Assembly (NCBI RefSeq): GCF_000013565.1
Contig: NC_007802.1
Coordinates: forward strand, 4,018,501 to 4,082,500
Direction of reading: 5' to 3'
Length of the DNA: 64,000 nt
Origin: Jannaschia sp. CCS1
GTDB lineage: Bacteria; Pseudomonadota; Alphaproteobacteria; Rhodobacterales; Rhodobacteraceae
Under the pieces are notes generated by a model. It saw only the letters and a program-made list of their open reading frames with translations. It had not been told where the DNA came from and ran no database searches. Made by a program: the position numbers and the translations under genes. Positions 55,828-64,000 of the stretch are shown here, one piece after another; positions within the stretch are counted from its first letter, which is position 1; every line of letters begins with the position of its first letter.

Positions 55828-56052
55828 TCAACCATCGGTCACTGAGGCGCTGCCGAAAGCCTCACAAATGTTGCGATGACCGGCCTCGTCCAGGCAAGCC
55901 AGGACATGACGGGCGAACGCAAGTGTCGCTGACACGCAGATCACGCCTCCAATGGCGACCGAGTATCCGCCGACCAGAGAGGTGAAGAACCCAGTCACCG
56001 CCATCTCACCCGCGCCGATGGGATAACCCCATGACCGTGCGACCGCGATCAA
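55828..56052 (-). pseudogene. possible C-terminal remnant of an MFS exporter
   Basis: A 74-residue frame whose pattern PIGAGEMAVTGFFTSLVGGYSV...GGVICVSATLAFAR resembles the last two helices of MFS_3-type exporters. No upstream part of such a gene is visible in any frame, so it looks like the leftover end of a deleted transporter gene. The 583-bp stretch 55716-56298 between rdhA and the AraC gene contains nothing else I can support except promoters. Confidence 0.3.
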
Positions 56053-56298
56053 AGCTCGATTGACATCGAATGTGGGTCAGATCGGCATTACCCCGCCTGT
56101 TCGACCCCTTCGTTGGCAATAGTGGGCTTGCTGGTCGCCACCGATATCCCGGCCGCGCCGTGGTCGGGGTCGTCGTTGCTGTCCGCGCACCCGACGGTCG
56201 CCGCGCCGCTTTCAAACTCTTACATAAGTTCTTCTGCTTCAATGCAGGCGCTCAGGAAGTGCTATGGGATCGTCGGGGCCGATGATATCGTCAGTGAA

Positions 56299-57240
56299 AT
56301 GAAGACATGGCAAGTCACCTCAAACGACCCGCATGAGGGTCTGACCAAATGGGCCGACGGCTTGGATGAGGCCTTCGTGCAGCTGGAGCCCGTGGCCACC
56401 ACCGGCGACGGGTTCTACGGACACATACAGCAGACATCAACGGCGGAGCTTGATGTCTCCGTCGTGACATCGACCGGCCACGAGATACGGCGGCTTGACC
56501 GTCACATCCGGCATCGCTCGGCGGACCTTTTGTACGTGAATATTCTGGGCCGGGGGCGCAGCGAAGTCTCCCAACGTGACACGGTCGTGGCGGCCCCCAT
56601 GGACGTATCGATTGTCGATCCCCGGGCGCCCTACTCCATCCGACAAGAGGCTCCGTTTCAATTGGTGTCCATTGCGGTGCCACCCGATTGGGTCGAACGC
56701 GAGGCGCGCCATTGTCACTTCCTCAGCCGAACCGCTGCCGGGCGCGAGTTATCCAGTGTTGTCTGGGGGTTGGCCAAGATGCTTTTGGCCATCAAGCCGG
56801 ATCAGGACGGCCTGGCAACTTCGTTGGCACAGCAAATCCACCATAGCCTGGCCTTGTTGCCAGAGATGGCGGGGTCAGACGCCACCCCGCGCGTTAGCGT
56901 CGCAATGCTGCAAAGCTACGTGCAGCGCCATTTTAGCCAGCCTGATTTGCGGGCCGAGCACCTCGCCCGACAGTTTGGCATTTCGGTGCGGCGCGTGCAT
57001 CAGTTGTTTGAGCCTACAGGACACACAGTGTCGGAATTCATCAACGACCTCCGCCTTGCCCGTGCCGCTGATTGCCTGGGTGACGCCGCCCTGGCAAGGC
57101 GCACGATCTCGGAAATCGCCTGGCAGGTTGGCTATAGCGATCCGTCCTACTTCACCCGCCGGTTCAAGCGACGCTACGGATGCTCGCCCCGTGCGTACCG
57201 TGCGGCCCATCATCCGGCTCCGATTGCGCGTTTGTCCTAG
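56299..57240 (+). CDS. AraC family transcriptional regulator
   Basis: A 313-residue regulator with an N-terminal AraC-binding-like domain and a C-terminal double helix-turn-helix (LRAEHLARQFGISVRRVHQLF and ISEIAWQVGYSDPSYFTRRFKRRYG). The start at 56299 gives the usual family length; ATG codons at 56113 and 56242 would extend it. It diverges from the rdhA side and precedes the nitronate monooxygenase-amidase pair, so it may control either. Confidence 0.88.
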   Translation: MKTWQVTSNDPHEGLTKWADGLDEAFVQLEPVATTGDGFYGHIQQTSTAELDVSVVTSTGHEIRRLDRHIRHRSADLLYVNILGRGRSEVSQRDTVVAAPMDVSIVDPRAPYSIRQEAPFQLVSIAVPPDWVEREARHCHFLSRTAAGRELSSVVWGLAKMLLAIKPDQDGLATSLAQQIHHSLALLPEMAGSDATPRVSVAMLQSYVQRHFSQPDLRAEHLARQFGISVRRVHQLFEPTGHTVSEFINDLRLARAADCLGDAALARRTISEIAWQVGYSDPSYFTRRFKRRYGCSPRAYRAAHHPAPIARLS

Positions 57241-57336
57241 AATTGCGCGCGCATGTCCTACAGTCGCCACGCAGCTTTCGCCTAGCCTGATCCACGCCGC
57301 CCGGATGCGGGCGGTCACTGATTGGGAGGGACGACA

Positions 57337-58362
57337 ATGGCCACACGCTTCACAAAGACATTCGGACTGAAATACCCCTTGGCACAGGCGGGCATGGCCT
57401 TTGCCGGTGCAGAGCCGGACCTGGCCATCGCGGTCTGCAAAGGCGGCGGCATCGGGTCAATCGGGGTTGGTTTCACCCCCGGAGAGGTCTTGCGCGGGAT
57501 GATTGGGACGATCCGCGCCGCCACTGACGCGCCGTTCAACATCAATTTCATCACCTGTTTCGGAAACGATGAACAAGTCCGCGTCGCCGCCGAGGAAAAG
57601 GTGCCGGTGGTGTCCTTTCACTGGGGCCACCCCCCGGCGGATCAGATCAAAATGCTCAAAGATGCAGGCTGTTCGATCTGGGTACAGGTTGGCACGGTCG
57701 AGGATGGGTTGCAGGCCGTAGACTATGGCGCTGACGTGATCGTCGCCCAGGGTTGGGAGGCAGGCGGGCACAATTATGGCGGCATGGGATCGATGGCGCT
57801 GATCCCCGCGATGGTGGACGCTGTGGGCGATCGCGCGATGGTCCTTGCATCAGGCGGTATCTCCGATGCGCGTGCGGCAGCGGCAGCGATGGTTCTGGGC
57901 GCGGACGGCGTTTGGGTCGGCACCCGACTGGTCGCCAGCACCGAAGCCACGGTTCACCGGGAACATCACGCAAGATTGGTCGCGGCAAGCGGCACCGATA
58001 CCACCCGGTCTGCCGTGTTCGGGCCGGAAATGCCCCACTTCAACCCGATGCGACTGCTCAAGGTGCGTGTCACCGAGGAGTTTGAAGGGCGCTTGCAGGA
58101 TGTCCCGATGGAGCGGGATAATGAGCCGATCATCGGCGAAACCCTTCTTGGGGGGCAAAAGCACATCAAGCGTCGGTTCGACGTGATCCTGCCAACGGAA
58201 GACACCACCGGCGACTTTGAGGAAATGGCGTGGCTTGCCGGTCAGGGCGTGGGGCAGGTCAGGGATATCAAGCCCGCCGCACAGATCGTGGAGGAGATGA
58301 TGGACGGGGCAAACGACCTTCTTAATCGCATGGGCGCGTCGATCCCGACGGCAGCGGAGTGA
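57337..58362 (+). CDS. nitronate monooxygenase (2-nitropropane dioxygenase family)
   Basis: A 341-residue FMN TIM-barrel enzyme that oxidises nitronates, e.g. propionate-3-nitronate, to carbonyl compounds. The N-terminal PLAQAGMAFAGAEPDLAIAV, the FMN-binding glycines ASGGISDARAAAAAMVLGADGVWVG-like block and the catalytic-His region QGWEAGGH are visible. GGGAGGG precedes the ATG. The end overlaps the amidase start by 4 nt. Confidence 0.87.
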   Translation: MATRFTKTFGLKYPLAQAGMAFAGAEPDLAIAVCKGGGIGSIGVGFTPGEVLRGMIGTIRAATDAPFNINFITCFGNDEQVRVAAEEKVPVVSFHWGHPPADQIKMLKDAGCSIWVQVGTVEDGLQAVDYGADVIVAQGWEAGGHNYGGMGSMALIPAMVDAVGDRAMVLASGGISDARAAAAAMVLGADGVWVGTRLVASTEATVHREHHARLVAASGTDTTRSAVFGPEMPHFNPMRLLKVRVTEEFEGRLQDVPMERDNEPIIGETLLGGQKHIKRRFDVILPTEDTTGDFEEMAWLAGQGVGQVRDIKPAAQIVEEMMDGANDLLNRMGASIPTAAE

Positions 58363-59645
58363 CCGCCGTGAACGACAAGGTGACGGCGGCCAAAACTGCT
58401 TTGCGCGCCATGGCCGGCCTGAACCCGCTGGTGCGCGATCCGTTCGACCTGTCGACCGGAGGCGATGGCCCGTTGTCAGGTATGCCAATCGTGGTCAAAG
58501 CCAATATCGCCATAGACGAATTGCCCCAGTGTGGCGCGTCCCCGGCCCTGGAGGACAACATCGCGCAGAACTCCGCGCCCGTTGTTCAAAGGCTGCTTGA
58601 CGCCGGGGCGGTCATTGTCGGGCAGGCAAACATGCACGAATTGGCGTTCGGCATCACCAGTTACAACGCGTATCACGGCGCGGTCGGCAATCCCGCCAAT
58701 CCCGCGCATATGGCCGGTGGCTCCTCTGGCGGGACGGCCGCTGCGGTTGCGTCCGGGGCGGTTTCCTTGGGCCTGGCCTCGGACACCGGTGGATCCGGCA
58801 GATTGCCTGCCGCCATGTGTGGCTGTGTCGGGTTCCGGCCCACGCAGGGGCGCTATCCATCGGACGGCATTCTCACGTTGTCGTCCAGCTTTGACACCGT
58901 CACGCCTATGGCACGTGATGTGGCGGGACTTACCCTGATCGACGCGGTGATGGCAGGCGTGGCACCCCGAAAGCGCGATCCGCACAAACCGCTGCGCCTC
59001 GGTGTGGTGGAAGATGCCTTCTGGCAGGGCGTCGATGCGGCGATGGCGCAGGCATGTCGTGACAAGCTCAACACCCTTGAGGACGCGGGCGTGCATCTCG
59101 TGCCGCTCAGCGCTCCGGATCTGATGGCCCGCTGCGCGGACATCTCGATGGGCATCGTTCTTTATGAAACGCAGATCTACTGGGACGCTTTTCTTGCATC
59201 GCGGGACACCACAATGATCGCATTCGCAGATCAGATCGCCAGTCCGGATGTCGCCAGCATTTTTGGTCACGTCGCCAGTGGTGCGGCCCCGTCCGATGCC
59301 GACTACGCGCAAATGAGCGGCCCCAAGCGCCGAGCAATTTGCAAGATCGTGACTGATCTGCTGGCTGACGTCGACGGCCTGATCATGCCGACACTGGCCA
59401 CCACCGCCCCGCTGATCGACCAGACCGAGACCTGCCGGATCAATGGCGAAGAGGTTGACCTATTCAACGCTCTGACGGCGCGGGCCCTTGTTGCGTCCAT
59501 CACTGGCCATCCCGAGATCTCCCTGCCTGCGGGGCAGCTGGGCGGGTTGCCCATCGGGTTGGGCATATTAGGGACGCATGGCCAGGATGATGAATTGCTG
59601 GCGGTTGCGGCACAGATCGAACCCCTGTTGGCAGCAACGAATTGA
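58359..59645 (+). CDS. amidase (amidase signature family)
   Basis: A 428-residue hydrolase of the amidase signature family. The Ser-cisSer-Lys triad is Lys47 (VVKAN), Ser121 in GGSSGG and Ser145 in DTGGSGRLPAAMCG; the spacings fit the family. The SGRLPAAMCGCVGFRPTQGRYP stretch in two parts resembles mandelamide and indoleacetamide hydrolases. It starts with GTG within the previous stop. It probably releases a carboxylic acid from an aromatic or aliphatic amide. Confidence 0.88.
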   Translation: MTAVNDKVTAAKTALRAMAGLNPLVRDPFDLSTGGDGPLSGMPIVVKANIAIDELPQCGASPALEDNIAQNSAPVVQRLLDAGAVIVGQANMHELAFGITSYNAYHGAVGNPANPAHMAGGSSGGTAAAVASGAVSLGLASDTGGSGRLPAAMCGCVGFRPTQGRYPSDGILTLSSSFDTVTPMARDVAGLTLIDAVMAGVAPRKRDPHKPLRLGVVEDAFWQGVDAAMAQACRDKLNTLEDAGVHLVPLSAPDLMARCADISMGIVLYETQIYWDAFLASRDTTMIAFADQIASPDVASIFGHVASGAAPSDADYAQMSGPKRRAICKIVTDLLADVDGLIMPTLATTAPLIDQTETCRINGEEVDLFNALTARALVASITGHPEISLPAGQLGGLPIGLGILGTHGQDDELLAVAAQIEPLLAATN

Positions 59646-59806
59646 TCATGAGGGGGGCTAGGCAAGATCGGCGGCGGCTCAACTAGGGCCTGTCATCGCC
59701 GGTCTGCGCGTCGGGCCGGAGATGATCGGGATCCTGTTACGGCTCCCCAATGTCACACGCGTCTCGCTCAGGACGTTGGCGCCGGTCGAACATCCCACCA
59801 AACGCA

Positions 59807-59832
59807 AAAGGCCCCCCGGGCGGGAGGCCTTT
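59807..59832 (-). terminator. rRNA operon terminator
   Basis: Stem AAAGGCC/GGCCTTT with a GC-rich interior, followed on the minus strand by TTTTGCGTTT, 26 bp after the tRNA-fMet gene. It ends the rRNA operon. Confidence 0.8.
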
Positions 59833-59858
59833 GAGCGCATATTGCGACGTTAAGACAT

Positions 59859-59935
<77 letters not shown>

Positions 59936-60296
59936 CCAATGGGTGTGAGGTATCCCTCTCCCACCTGAGTCGCAAGGGGCATATGATGGAATTGTGACGT
60001 GAATCTGCGGTTTGTTGACCGGGCTTTCGATAAAGAGATGGGTCAGCTGCACGTCGCCAAGGTCGGCGTCACTCGGAAGGCGCGTAGCGCGCGCGGCCAT
60101 GCCGAGCGGCAAAAATCCATCTGGCCTGAGCATGAGATCAACCACAGAAGCCGTTTGCGCACCCAATATCCGTGTGCTGCCCGCCGACGGTAGTCTCTGC
60201 GTAGGTCATAAACGACGCAGACACCTAAAGGGGTGTGGCAAGTTCGATTGTTTGGAAGGGGGTATCGTTAGAGAGATATGTTTGTTTCTTACTAGG
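59936..60296 (-). other. spacer between 5S rRNA and tRNA-fMet
   Basis: 361 bp of transcribed spacer. No protein or RNA gene is recognised; frames in it are short and not protein-like. It is longer than the spacer I would expect here. Confidence 0.6.
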
Positions 60297-60411
60297 TTTG
60301 GCGGTGACCTACTCTCCCACACCTTAAGATGCAGTACCATCGGCGCAACGGCACTTAACGGCCGGGTTCGGAATGGAGCCGGGTGTTTTGCTCGCGCTAT
60401 GACCACCAAAC
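60297..60411 (-). rRNA. rrf: 5S ribosomal RNA
   Basis: About 115 nt with the 5S signature: closing stem GTTTGG/CCAAAC, and the conserved CCATTCCGAACCCGG and GTGGGAGAGTAGGTCACCGCC strings on the minus strand. It lies about 155 bp after the 23S gene; ends are approximate. Confidence 0.93.
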
Positions 60412-60437
60412 CAAGAAAGAAACAAACATTTATCAGT

Positions 60438-60467
60438 GTGCTACCGCGCCTCGCGCTACTTGAGCAC
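60438..60467 (-). repeat. 30-nt CAAGTA hairpin element, copy C (between 23S and 5S)
   Basis: Minus strand: GTGCT, CAAGTA, GCGC, GAG loop, GCGC, GGT, AGCAC. The outer stem sequence differs from copies B and D but pairing is kept (covariation). Confidence 0.6.
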
Positions 60468-60553
60468 GAATGCGGCGGCACTCTATCCAGATTTTAACAC
60501 TGTATGGTGTTGGTGATGCTTGAAGATCAGGTCGGACAGTTTCCTGTCTATCA

Positions 60554-60569
60554 CTGGATCAAATCAAGC
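60554..60569 (-). other. 3' arm of the 23S processing stem
   Basis: 16 bp exactly complementary to 63925-63940 at the other end of the 23S gene. The two arms form the long-range stem cleaved by RNase III to release pre-23S rRNA. Confidence 0.75.
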
Positions 60570-60985
60570 CTATCGAACAATTAGTACCAGTCAACTGAGC
60601 GTGTTACCACGCTTACATCTCTGGCCTATCGACGAGGTGGTCTACCTCGGTTCTCAGGGATACCTTGTTTTGAGGGGGGCTTCCCGCTTAGATGCCTTCA
60701 GCGGTTATCCTTTCCGATCATAGCTACCCAGCACTGCTCCTGGCGGAACAACTGGTACACCAGTGGATCGTTCACCCCGGTCCTCTCGTACTAGGGGCAA
60801 CTCCTCTCAAGTATCCTACACCCACGGCAGATAGGGACCGAACTGTCTCACGACGTTCTAAACCCAGCTCACGTACCTCTTTAAACGGCGAACAGCCGTA
60901 CCCTTGGGACCTGCTCCAGCCCCAGGATGAGATGAGCCGACATCGAGGTGCCAAACGGTGCCGTCGATATGGACTCTTGGGCACC

Positions 60986-61039
<54 letters not shown>

Positions 61040-61162
61040 TCGGGACCACCGGATCACTATGGCCGTCTTTCGACTCTGCTCGACTTGTCAGTCTCGCAGT
61101 CAGGCTGGCTTCTGCCATTGCACTCAACGAGCGATTTCCGACCGCTCTGAGCCAACCTTCGC

Positions 61163-61212
<50 letters not shown>

Positions 61213-61467
61213 ACAGAGGGTCCCGGATCCGGATAACGGACCGCGGTTAGATAACAAGAATGCGAAGGGTGGTATCTCAAGGATGGCTCCACAGAAACTA
61301 GCGTTCCTGCTTCAAAGCCTACCACCTATCCTGCACATCCCAGTCCTGTTACCAGTCTGAAGCTGTAGTAAAGGTGCACGGGGTCTTTCCGTCTAACCGC
61401 GGGAAGCCTGCATCTTGACAGGCAATTCAATTTCGCTGAGTCGATGTTGGAGACAGCGGGGAAGTCG

Positions 61468-61550
<83 letters not shown>

Positions 61551-62321
61551 TGGGCTTCAATTCAAGGCTTGCACCTCTCCTTTTAACCTTCAGGCACCGG
61601 GCAGGCGTCAGACCCTATACGTCGTCTTGCGACTTCGCAGAGCCCTGTGTTTTTAGTAAACAGTCGCCACCCCCTGGTTTGTGCCCCCAGTCAATACTTG
61701 CGTAGAAACTGGGCCTCCTTCTCGCGAACTTACGGAGGTATTTTGCCGAGTTCCTTCAACATCGTTCTCTCAAGCGCCTTGGTATTCTCTACCAGTCCAC
61801 CTGTGTCGGTTTAGGGTACGATCTTATGCCAGAGCTATTTCCAGGATCCGATTAACGGCCCACCCAATCCAATAAGGGTGAACAATCTTCACGAACCGTC
61901 ACTACTGGCTGGCCCAGGAATATTAACCTGGTTCCCATCGACTACGCCTTTCGGCCTCGCCTTAGGGGTCGGCTTACCCTGCTCAGATTAGCTTTAAGCA
62001 GGAACCCTTGGACTTTCGGCGACAGGGTCTCTCACCCTGTTTGTCGCTACTCATGTCATCATTCTCACTAGTGATCTCTCCACCGGATGGCTCACGCCCC
62101 GGCTTCACAGAAAAGACTGTATCTTTTGCTACCGCCTATCGACTGCTTGGACACGAATGCCCGCACACCCTTAGTGCAGTAATAAAGATAAGTCTTATGT
62201 CACACTACGCTCCGCTACCATGCACTATGTGCATCCTCAGCTTCGGCTCATGGCTTGAGCCCCGATACATCTTCGCCGCAGGACAACTTATTTAGACCAG
62301 TGAGCTGTTACGCTATCTTTA

Positions 62322-62352
<31 letters not shown>

Positions 62353-62849
62353 TTGTTTTGGTCGTCCCACCTGCTTTCCCACTTAGCCATGAATTAGGGG
62401 CCTTAGCTGGAGGTCAGGGTTGTTTCCCTCTCCACAATGGACGTTAGCATCCACTGTGTGTCTGCCGACTAGTACTCACGGGTATTCGGAGTTTGGTTAG
62501 GATCAGTAAGCCTGTGGGGCCCCATTACCCATCCAGTGCTCTACCCCCCGTGGTATTCGGTCGACGCTCTACCTAAATAGATTTCGCGGAGAACCAGCTA
62601 TCTCCGAGTTTGATTGGCCTTTCACCCCTAGGCACACCTCATCCCGACCTTTTTCAACAGGTGTGGGTTCGGACCTCCAGTAAGTGTTACCTTACCTTCA
62701 TCCTGGACATGCCTAGATCACTCGGTTTCGGGTCTGATCCCACGAACTCAACGCCCTATTAAGACTCGCTTTCGCTGCGCCTACACCTAACGGCTTAAGC
62801 TTGCTCGTGAGACCAAGTCGATGACCCATTATACAAAAGGTACGCCGTC

Positions 62850-63373
62850 ACCCGACTGGAGATTAATTTGGAGGTCAGAACCGAAGGCGATAGCGGATGG
62901 CTATGGCTTCTGATCCTGGGTTGAAGTCTTCGGCTCCACCGTTTGACAGGTGGTCGATCGAGACTGAGATCGCCGACGTTTCGCTCAGGTCATACCCGAG
63001 CCCGATCAGCGACCGGTACTGCAACGCCCCGCCCAGGACATCATCCTGTTCGTGGTAATAGCCCGGCATGAACGAAAACTCGACGAACACACGCTCGCTG
63101 AGATGTCGTTCCAGCGCAACACCGGCGCCGATCCATGCATCACCATCTTGATCAATCCTTGCCGCCACTGCCAGCGCCGCTTGGAAGCGGTTCGTGCTGT
63201 GGAACGGGGTTACATTGTACTCGATGGTGCCATGGATCCCATGGCCATCTTCATCCCACCCTAGGCCTCCGATAACCTGTTGGGCTTCGGTTGCGGGTGC
63301 GATCCAGATCGCTGCGAGAAAAATAAAACGTTTCATGCGTTCTATTCATCTCCAAATTAAACTCCAGTCAAGC
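62850..63373 (-). other. intervening sequence (IVS) in 23S helix 25, carrying a pagL-like gene
   Basis: An insertion of about 520 nt replaces the tip of helix 25, between the GCAGTCGGA and GTGACGGCGTACC strings on the minus strand. Its ends are inverted repeats: 62854-62873 and 63350-63369 pair over 20 positions with one U-U mismatch, and G-U pairs extend the stem to 24. This is the architecture of IVSs that RNase III cuts out, leaving fragmented 23S rRNA. The 476-nt loop is filled almost completely by one ORF in the same sense as the rRNA. Confidence 0.88.
62875..63336 (-). CDS. pagL: PagL-like lipid A 3-O-deacylase encoded inside the 23S intervening sequence
   Basis: A 153-residue protein with a Sec signal peptide (MKRFIFLAAIWIAPATEA/QQ) and an outer-membrane beta-barrel pattern ending in YRLRF with a terminal Phe. 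The C-terminal IDHLSNGGAEDFNPGSE has His129, Ser131 and Glu143; the His-x-Ser pair and the +14 position of Glu equal the catalytic triad of Pseudomonas PagL (His126, Ser128, Glu140). PagL removes the 3-O-acyl chain of lipid A in the outer membrane. The ORF is intact, starts 13 nt after the 5' IVS arm and stops 1 nt before the 3' arm. The nearest Shine-Dalgarno-like GGAG lies within the stem. Transcription depends on the rRNA promoter. Confidence 0.82.
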   Translation of the reverse strand: MKRFIFLAAIWIAPATEAQQVIGGLGWDEDGHGIHGTIEYNVTPFHSTNRFQAALAVAARIDQDGDAWIGAGVALERHLSERVFVEFSFMPGYYHEQDDVLGGALQYRSLIGLGYDLSETSAISVSIDHLSNGGAEDFNPGSEAIAIRYRLRF

Positions 63374-63924
63374 TCCGACTGCTTGTAGGCGTTCGGTTTC
63401 AGGGACTGTTTCACTCCCCTCGTCGGGGTGCTTTTCACCTTTCCCTCACGGTACTGGTTCACTATCGGTCAGTAAGGAGTACTTAGCCTTCGAAGGTGGT
63501 CCTCCGATCTTCAGACAGGATTTCACGTGTCCCGCCCTACTTGATACGTCCAATCATGCTTCTCATACGGGGCTGTCACCCACTATGGCGGACCTTTCCA
63601 GGTCCTTCTGATCACATTCATGGCTCGGCTGGTTCCCGTTCGCTCGCCGCTACTAGGGAAGTCGCTATTGCTGTCCTTTCCTCCGGGTACTTAGATGTTT
63701 CAGTTCCCCGGGTTTGCTTTTTTAAGCCTATATATTCAGCCTAAAAATACCTGGCTCAGCCACCTATTAATTACCGAAGTAATAATAGGAAAACTGTCAG
63801 GTGGGTTGCCCCATTCGGAAATCCAGGGATCAAAGCCTATTCTCGGCTCCCCCTAGCTTATCGCAGAGTATCACGTCCTTCATCGCCTCTTACTGCCAAG
63901 GCATTCACCAAACGCCCTTTTCGC

Positions 63925-63940
63925 GCTTGATTTGATCCAG
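63925..63940 (-). other. 5' arm of the 23S processing stem
   Basis: 16 bp, exact complement of 60554-60569; RNase III processing stem. Confidence 0.75.
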
Positions 63941-63965
63941 AGAAAGACAGGCTTGTATTGATCAA

Positions 63966-63994
63966 CTCCTATCGCCTTACGGCTACTTGAGGAG
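63966..63994 (-). repeat. CAAGTA hairpin element, copy D (upstream of 23S)
   Basis: Minus strand: CTCCT, CAAGTA, GCC, GTAA loop, GGC, GAT, AGGAG. Same architecture as copies B and C with different stem bases. It lies in the pre-23S spacer. Confidence 0.6.
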
Positions 63995-64000
63995 ATCTGA

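Follow-up and report, generated by a model that had tools for sequence, protein, structure and literature searches.

Can a gene for a cell-envelope enzyme be carried within a 23S rRNA gene and be expressed together with the ribosomal RNA? This question is raised by a stretch of 64,000 nucleotides from Jannaschia sp. CCS1 (contig NC_007802.1), referred to here as the window, in which the sole 23S rRNA match of the searched 4.4 Mb, two-contig genome is interrupted by an insert. A stretch beside the window is masked and could hide a second 23S copy; no 16S rRNA match was found. Alignment with the E. coli 23S rRNA places this insertion of 509 nt at E. coli position 542, which we take to correspond to helix 25 in the usual numbering. 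Its ends form an inverted repeat with arms of 20 nt each, 95% complementary and 476 nt apart, and an intact ORF of 153 codons takes up 462 of the 476 loop bases in the direction of the rRNA, both genes lying on the minus strand; the repeat and the ORF had been described in the original prediction, which was made from the letters alone, and both were recovered at the positions given in Table 1. With its helix 25 site, its complementary ends and its patchy presence among related genomes, the insert is an intervening sequence (IVS). The 544-nt RNA folds with a z-score of -7.5 relative to 100 shuffles, as expected given such arms. A group I or group II intron was rejected on the grounds that only LSU rRNA, 5S rRNA and tRNA reached gathering score in an Rfam search of positions 56000-64000, and a homing endonuclease insertion on the grounds that no endonuclease domain occurred among the Pfam matches of the ORF. 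Elsewhere in the same gene, a length-variable segment at 62108-62198, near E. coli position 1204, measures about 85 nt compared to 51 nt in G011; it lies within a variable 23S region and was put aside.

Table 1. Features of the 23S rRNA locus and its helix 25 insert, in window positions.
Feature	Position	Strand	Evidence
23S rRNA gene with insert	60560..63932	-	Rfam RF02541, 2609 bits, model 1-2925
Helix 25 IVS, replacing 13 nt of the empty site	62851..63372	-	BLAST gap in G005, G006, G007, G010, G011; alignment of four; E. coli position 542
IVS stem, 5' arm (rRNA sense)	63350..63369	-	Inverted repeat, 95% complementary; stem ladder, 23/25 columns paired
IVS stem, 3' arm (rRNA sense)	62854..62873	-	Same inverted repeat and stem ladder
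GGAG, possible ribosome-binding site	63350..63353	-	Inner end of 5' arm; sequence and fold; putative function
PagL-family ORF, 153 codons, ATG start, TGA stop	62875..63336	-	
Signal-peptide-like N-terminus, residues 1-18 (MKR, hydrophobic stretch, A-T-E-A)	63283..63336	-	By eye; residues 1-15 pLDDT <50
His129 codon, predicted catalytic	62950..62952	-	Aligns with 2erv chain residue 126; invariant in 14/14 aligned proteins
Ser131 codon, predicted catalytic	62944..62946	-	Aligns with 2erv chain residue 128; invariant in 14/14
Glu143 codon, predicted catalytic	62908..62910	-	Aligns with 2erv chain residue 140; Glu in 10/14, Asp in 3, Asn in 1
5S rRNA gene, downstream of 23S	60296..60410	-	Rfam RF00001
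tRNA-Met(CAT), downstream of 5S	59859..59935	-	ARAGORN

The openness of the ORF is by itself weak evidence, since a stop-free run of 153 codons was retained in 156 of 20,000 loop shuffles; beside it stands a match of residues 81-152 to the Pfam family PagL (PF09411) with 51 bits against a curated cut-off of 23 (E 2.2e-13). No other Pfam family was listed for the ORF at E values up to 10, a search of NCBIfam returned no family for it, and it provides the only PagL match in the Jannaschia sp. CCS1 genome. The predicted structure is an all-beta, eight-strand barrel of the outer-membrane type, resembling the solved PagL 2erv, which was the best match in VIA-align (17% identity); for both subtypes of IVS-encoded protein PagL came first among barrels. 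These outcomes of the HMM search and the structure prediction, both proposed with the original prediction, agree with its claims of a barrel-like C-terminus and of a His129-x-Ser131...Glu143 arrangement at PagL spacing, as all three residues align with residues of 2erv that presumably form its catalytic triad. In an alignment of 41 proteins, comprising one IVS-encoded protein, 37 drawn from its 315 database relatives and three free ones, every member matched PagL, and the His, Ser and Glu were invariant. In Salmonella PagL, His163 and Ser165 are essential, according to the available part of PMC4958258. An S23p identity was rejected because S23p is a four-helix bundle, whereas the window ORF is predicted to be an all-beta barrel with PagL as its only Pfam family. 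The product is therefore predicted, from sequence and structural model, to be a PagL-family lipid A 3-O-deacylase. A PagL fold that acts on another lipid or merely binds one would be in keeping with the low identity to the solved enzyme, the weak direct phmmer match to 2erv (E 0.047) and the Foldseek ranking, in which 2erv was among the best structural matches with a designed barrel just ahead of it; however, the above-threshold Pfam match, the triad in place and the first rank of PagL among barrels make such a role very unlikely.

How such a gene might be expressed is suggested by its position. Since the PagL gene is in sense orientation, some 560 nt from the start of the 23S gene, it would be transcribed from the rrn promoter as part of the pre-23S rRNA. 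By analogy with known IVSs, RNase III, which is reported to excise such elements in other bacteria (available parts of PMC4990558, PMC12013901 and PMC6191907) and whose gene was found in the window's genome, is predicted to release the IVS RNA. The freed RNA may then be translated, the product may reach the outer membrane by means of its signal-peptide-like start and, as its PagL match, predicted fold and triad suggest, it would remove the 3-O acyl chain of lipid A, which is likely made in this organism since LpxC was found. PagL supply would then track rRNA synthesis. Taken together, co-transcription of an intact IVS-borne PagL gene with rRNA, release by RNase III and translation into an outer-membrane lipid A 3-O-deacylase is the reading that we consider moderately probable. 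The common subtype of IVS-encoded PagL (L063, L066, L068-L071, L073-L076, L078-L083) starts with MADGTF or similar and has a predicted N-terminal helix with two conserved cysteines and no classical signal peptide by eye, which weighs against the export step of this reading.

Alternatively, a cryptic promoter within the 23S gene could drive expression, or the unprocessed pre-rRNA could serve as the message; RNase III would then destroy this message instead of releasing it, and output would fall when rRNA processing is fast. The putative ribosome-binding site bears on this alternative, as the GGAG is paired in the fold with CTCC of the 3' arm and its access could hinge on processing; RNase III cutting may thus either free or destroy it. 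A scan for sigma-70-like promoters in 62700-63600 found none, compared to 0.6 in shuffles, which is a weak negative against a cryptic promoter. Also against this alternative, 16 relatives carry a G-rich purine run within the loop, in the 30 nt that precede the start; it is GGAG in seven of them and another such run in the rest. On this evidence the cryptic-promoter or unprocessed-transcript route seems quite unlikely. The stem that RNase III would cut appears to be kept: over 17 inserts, 18-23 of its 25 columns are paired, with 23 in the window and 18-22 in the 16 relatives. Two-sided changes occur at eight columns, at five of which the window is their sole source. A U-U mismatch is found at the identical column (column 13) in 16 of the 17 inserts, possibly as a mark for RNase III. 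As related sequences count several times, these data support a kept stem, not many independent events.

The arrangement recurs in the family of the window, for which named relatives and plasmid matches point to Rhodobacteraceae in a broad sense. The search of relatives for helix 25 inserts that had been suggested with the original prediction bore fruit: a pattern of the IVS 3' arm and its 23S flank matched at 24 places in 21 of 394 family genomes, with a PagL match just inside the insert at 22 places in 19 genomes; of the other two places, one is unreadable save for a tail resembling the PagL C-terminus and one is wholly unreadable. PagL nested in 23S is thereby found in the window's genus and in 18 others of the family. 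Empty helix 25 sites were scored in 83 of the 394 genomes, all different from the 21 with the arm pattern, while 290 were scored by neither pattern owing to masking, contig ends or other flanks. Inserts readable end to end in 17 genomes measure 520 nt in the window, by the bounds set for this comparison, and 598-742 nt in the others. In a separate search, PagL was detected in 104 of the 394 genomes, 85 of which have it without the arm pattern, and in 18 of the 19 genomes with a PagL insert there was no PagL match outside the IVS, the exception being a second match in G177. Free PagL genes appear to be the commoner state, since 23 of the best 30 PagL loci have no 23S within about 1.5 kb, six lie in a 23S IVS and one (L107) lies between 23S relics. 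None of the relatives of the window ORF lay within 23S at the 17 named loci that were inspected with flanks of up to 6 kb. Class-wide, the arm pattern was matched among 337 genomes only by the window's own (five of them belong to its family; 0 of 332 outside it), a weak negative given the exact flanks and masking. Relatives were present in 6 and 8 records of the plasmid collection, annotated as acyloxyacyl hydrolase wherever annotated; among viral contigs, none of 64 pattern matches was a relative. In G352, a PagL IVS is present at all three pattern places (L074, L085, L086), indicating that the element can occupy several rrn copies. The recurrence also bears on whether a PagL gene was misjoined into the 23S gene during assembly, as might be suspected of a single copy in one genome; the arrangement was also found in 18 further genera and three times in G352, the arms are complementary, and the identical protein is listed on two contigs no longer than 6675 bases, a sign that it was also observed outside the 4.3 Mb contig. 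Such an artefact therefore has a negligible probability.

Purifying selection is apparent where the insert is common. Across 16 full-length relatives, pN/pS in the PagL frame is below 1 in 120 of 120 pairs, with a median of 0.42 and values of 0.16-0.23 in the closest eight pairs, compared to 1.12 and 1.42 in the shifted frames, and these ratios indicate that the IVS-borne PagL relatives are under purifying, protein-level selection. The inserts of the common subtype differ by 14-57% at the protein level, a diversity large enough for an old presence in the family. The window ORF has a pN/pS of 0.51-0.60 relative to five homologs, of which four are free genes and one lies between 23S relics; the shifted frames give 0.94-1.36. 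As it is the only one of its subtype found within an intact 23S gene, with three related protein clusters at E ≤1e-3, these values do not demonstrate selection since insertion. The element is also young or moving in the genus. In the five same-genus genomes with a readable 23S (G005, G006, G007, G010, G011; seven further genomes gave no 23S match), the empty site comprises 13 nt against 522 nt in the window, with flanks 93-100% identical, and IVS DNA was found in one of 13 genus genomes, the window's own. Since the five readable relatives are without the insert, the helix 25 element in this genus is, judged by sequence comparison, recent or mobile.

The window IVS could accordingly be a recent, neutral passenger, its PagL ORF caught while still intact and left untranslated, its RNA excised and degraded. 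The narrow distribution in the genus would fit, as would the wide spacing of 13 nt between GGAG and ATG and a low codon score of 0.10, compared to a median of 0.22 and a minimum of 0.03 among 27 long window ORFs and no better than one antisense frame (0.12). There is also a precedent in Coxiella, where the IVS RNA is rapidly degraded and the ORF product is apparently absent in vivo, as stated in the available part of PMC4990558. However, protein-level selection is clear in the relatives of the same class, every readable arm-matching insert encodes PagL sequence (by Pfam at 22 of 24 places, by its tail at one more) and the window ORF is intact with its triad kept, so that a mere passenger appears unlikely. 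Beyond the proposed expression of the window's PagL gene, a broader proposition would have the pre-23S rRNA double as messenger for a lipid A deacylase across the family, with at least two captures at helix 25, envelope remodelling dosed by ribosome synthesis and the 23S gene as home of the cell's only PagL; we regard it as evenly balanced.

IVSs occur elsewhere in the bacterial class of the window, where the 23S rRNA is fragmented by IVS removal but in another helix, and we know of no ORF in these elements. The 23S IVSs of Salmonella were reportedly described by Burgin in 1990. Those at helix 25 and helix 45 of Salmonella are short and share with the window insert the site, the terminal stem and the patchy presence (available parts of PMC2672173 and PMC12013901), but the accessible portion of PMC2672173 presents them as small and without an ORF, whereas the loop of the window IVS is a PagL gene. 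In Coxiella, the single-copy 23S gene holds a 428-nt IVS that likewise has one ORF; as far as the excerpt of PMC4990558 goes, it lies in helix 45 and its decaying ORF encodes an S23p four-helix bundle of unknown function. The window IVS differs in encoding a member of a predicted outer-membrane enzyme family, with relatives under purifying selection. Protein genes within rRNA genes are also known from transposase-coding insertions in Deinococcus and Nostoc (available part of PMC2672173) and from LAGLIDADG and GIY-YIG endonuclease insertions in CPR bacteria (available part of PMC11270868), but the proteins encoded there serve the mobility of the element itself, whereas PagL enzymes belong to the cell envelope and are not known to act in mobility. 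The PagL proteins of P. aeruginosa (2erv) and Salmonella share with the window product the Pfam family, the barrel and the spacing of His-x-Ser and Glu, but are encoded by free genes, whereas the window PagL lies inside rRNA. Salmonella PagL is induced under PhoPQ-activating conditions (available part of PMC4958258).

In the accessible portions of the literature, ORFs in IVSs or rRNA inserts encode S23 proteins (PMC4990558), transposases (PMC2672173) or homing endonucleases (PMC11270868). Literature searches that combined IVS with PagL or with lipid A deacylase returned no report, in line with the original prediction, which knew of no described case. Two others, one for Roseobacter with IVS and one for coding genes within 23S, had nothing on the subject among the matches listed (12 of 530 in the latter). 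The IVS and PagL are each known; their combination, its recurrence and the selection on it are new as far as these searches reach. Most descriptions of rRNA IVSs treat them as selfish or neutral. Here helix 25 holds an envelope-enzyme family in 19 genera, and protein-level selection among the relatives opens to direct test the question of whether IVSs benefit the cell. Should expression follow rRNA, the structure of lipid A would be linked to growth rate without a regulator, and the rRNA would act as mRNA. Such genes may go unnoticed because they are nested in a feature annotated as 23S rRNA.

Regarding the origin of the cargo, a tree of 58 PagL proteins separates 17 IVS rows (one partial) from the window ORF across a branch with 100/100 support, and the window ORF groups with free genes, e.g. 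from Oceaniglobus, Roseibacterium and a Maritalea-named genome. The outer IVS arm GCTTGACTGGA is nevertheless common to the window insert and the others. Given the separate branch of the window PagL and the shared arm, either helix 25 captured PagL a second time or an old IVS frame was kept while its cargo was replaced. Comparison of 23S and PagL distances over 16 inserts gave no significant correlation (Mantel r 0.21, p 0.16), and hence neither vertical descent nor transfer is demonstrated. One free protein, L087, is placed among the IVS rows in the tree, and the fork of just those 18 rows is weak (88/35). The gene of this IVS-subtype PagL (L087 / L118, G365) lies on a contig stretch without 23S sequence; it either escaped from an rRNA gene or is a free copy of independent origin. 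In G302 (L107:1231-1879; L117:8556-9204), a free PagL gene is located between two decayed 23S pieces of 78 nt (76% identity) and 41 nt (80% identity) that match the two flanks of helix 25, with no further 23S and no tRNA in the 18 kb around the gene. This locus, which lies in no rRNA operon seen, is likely a fossil PagL IVS and as such supports movement of the element.
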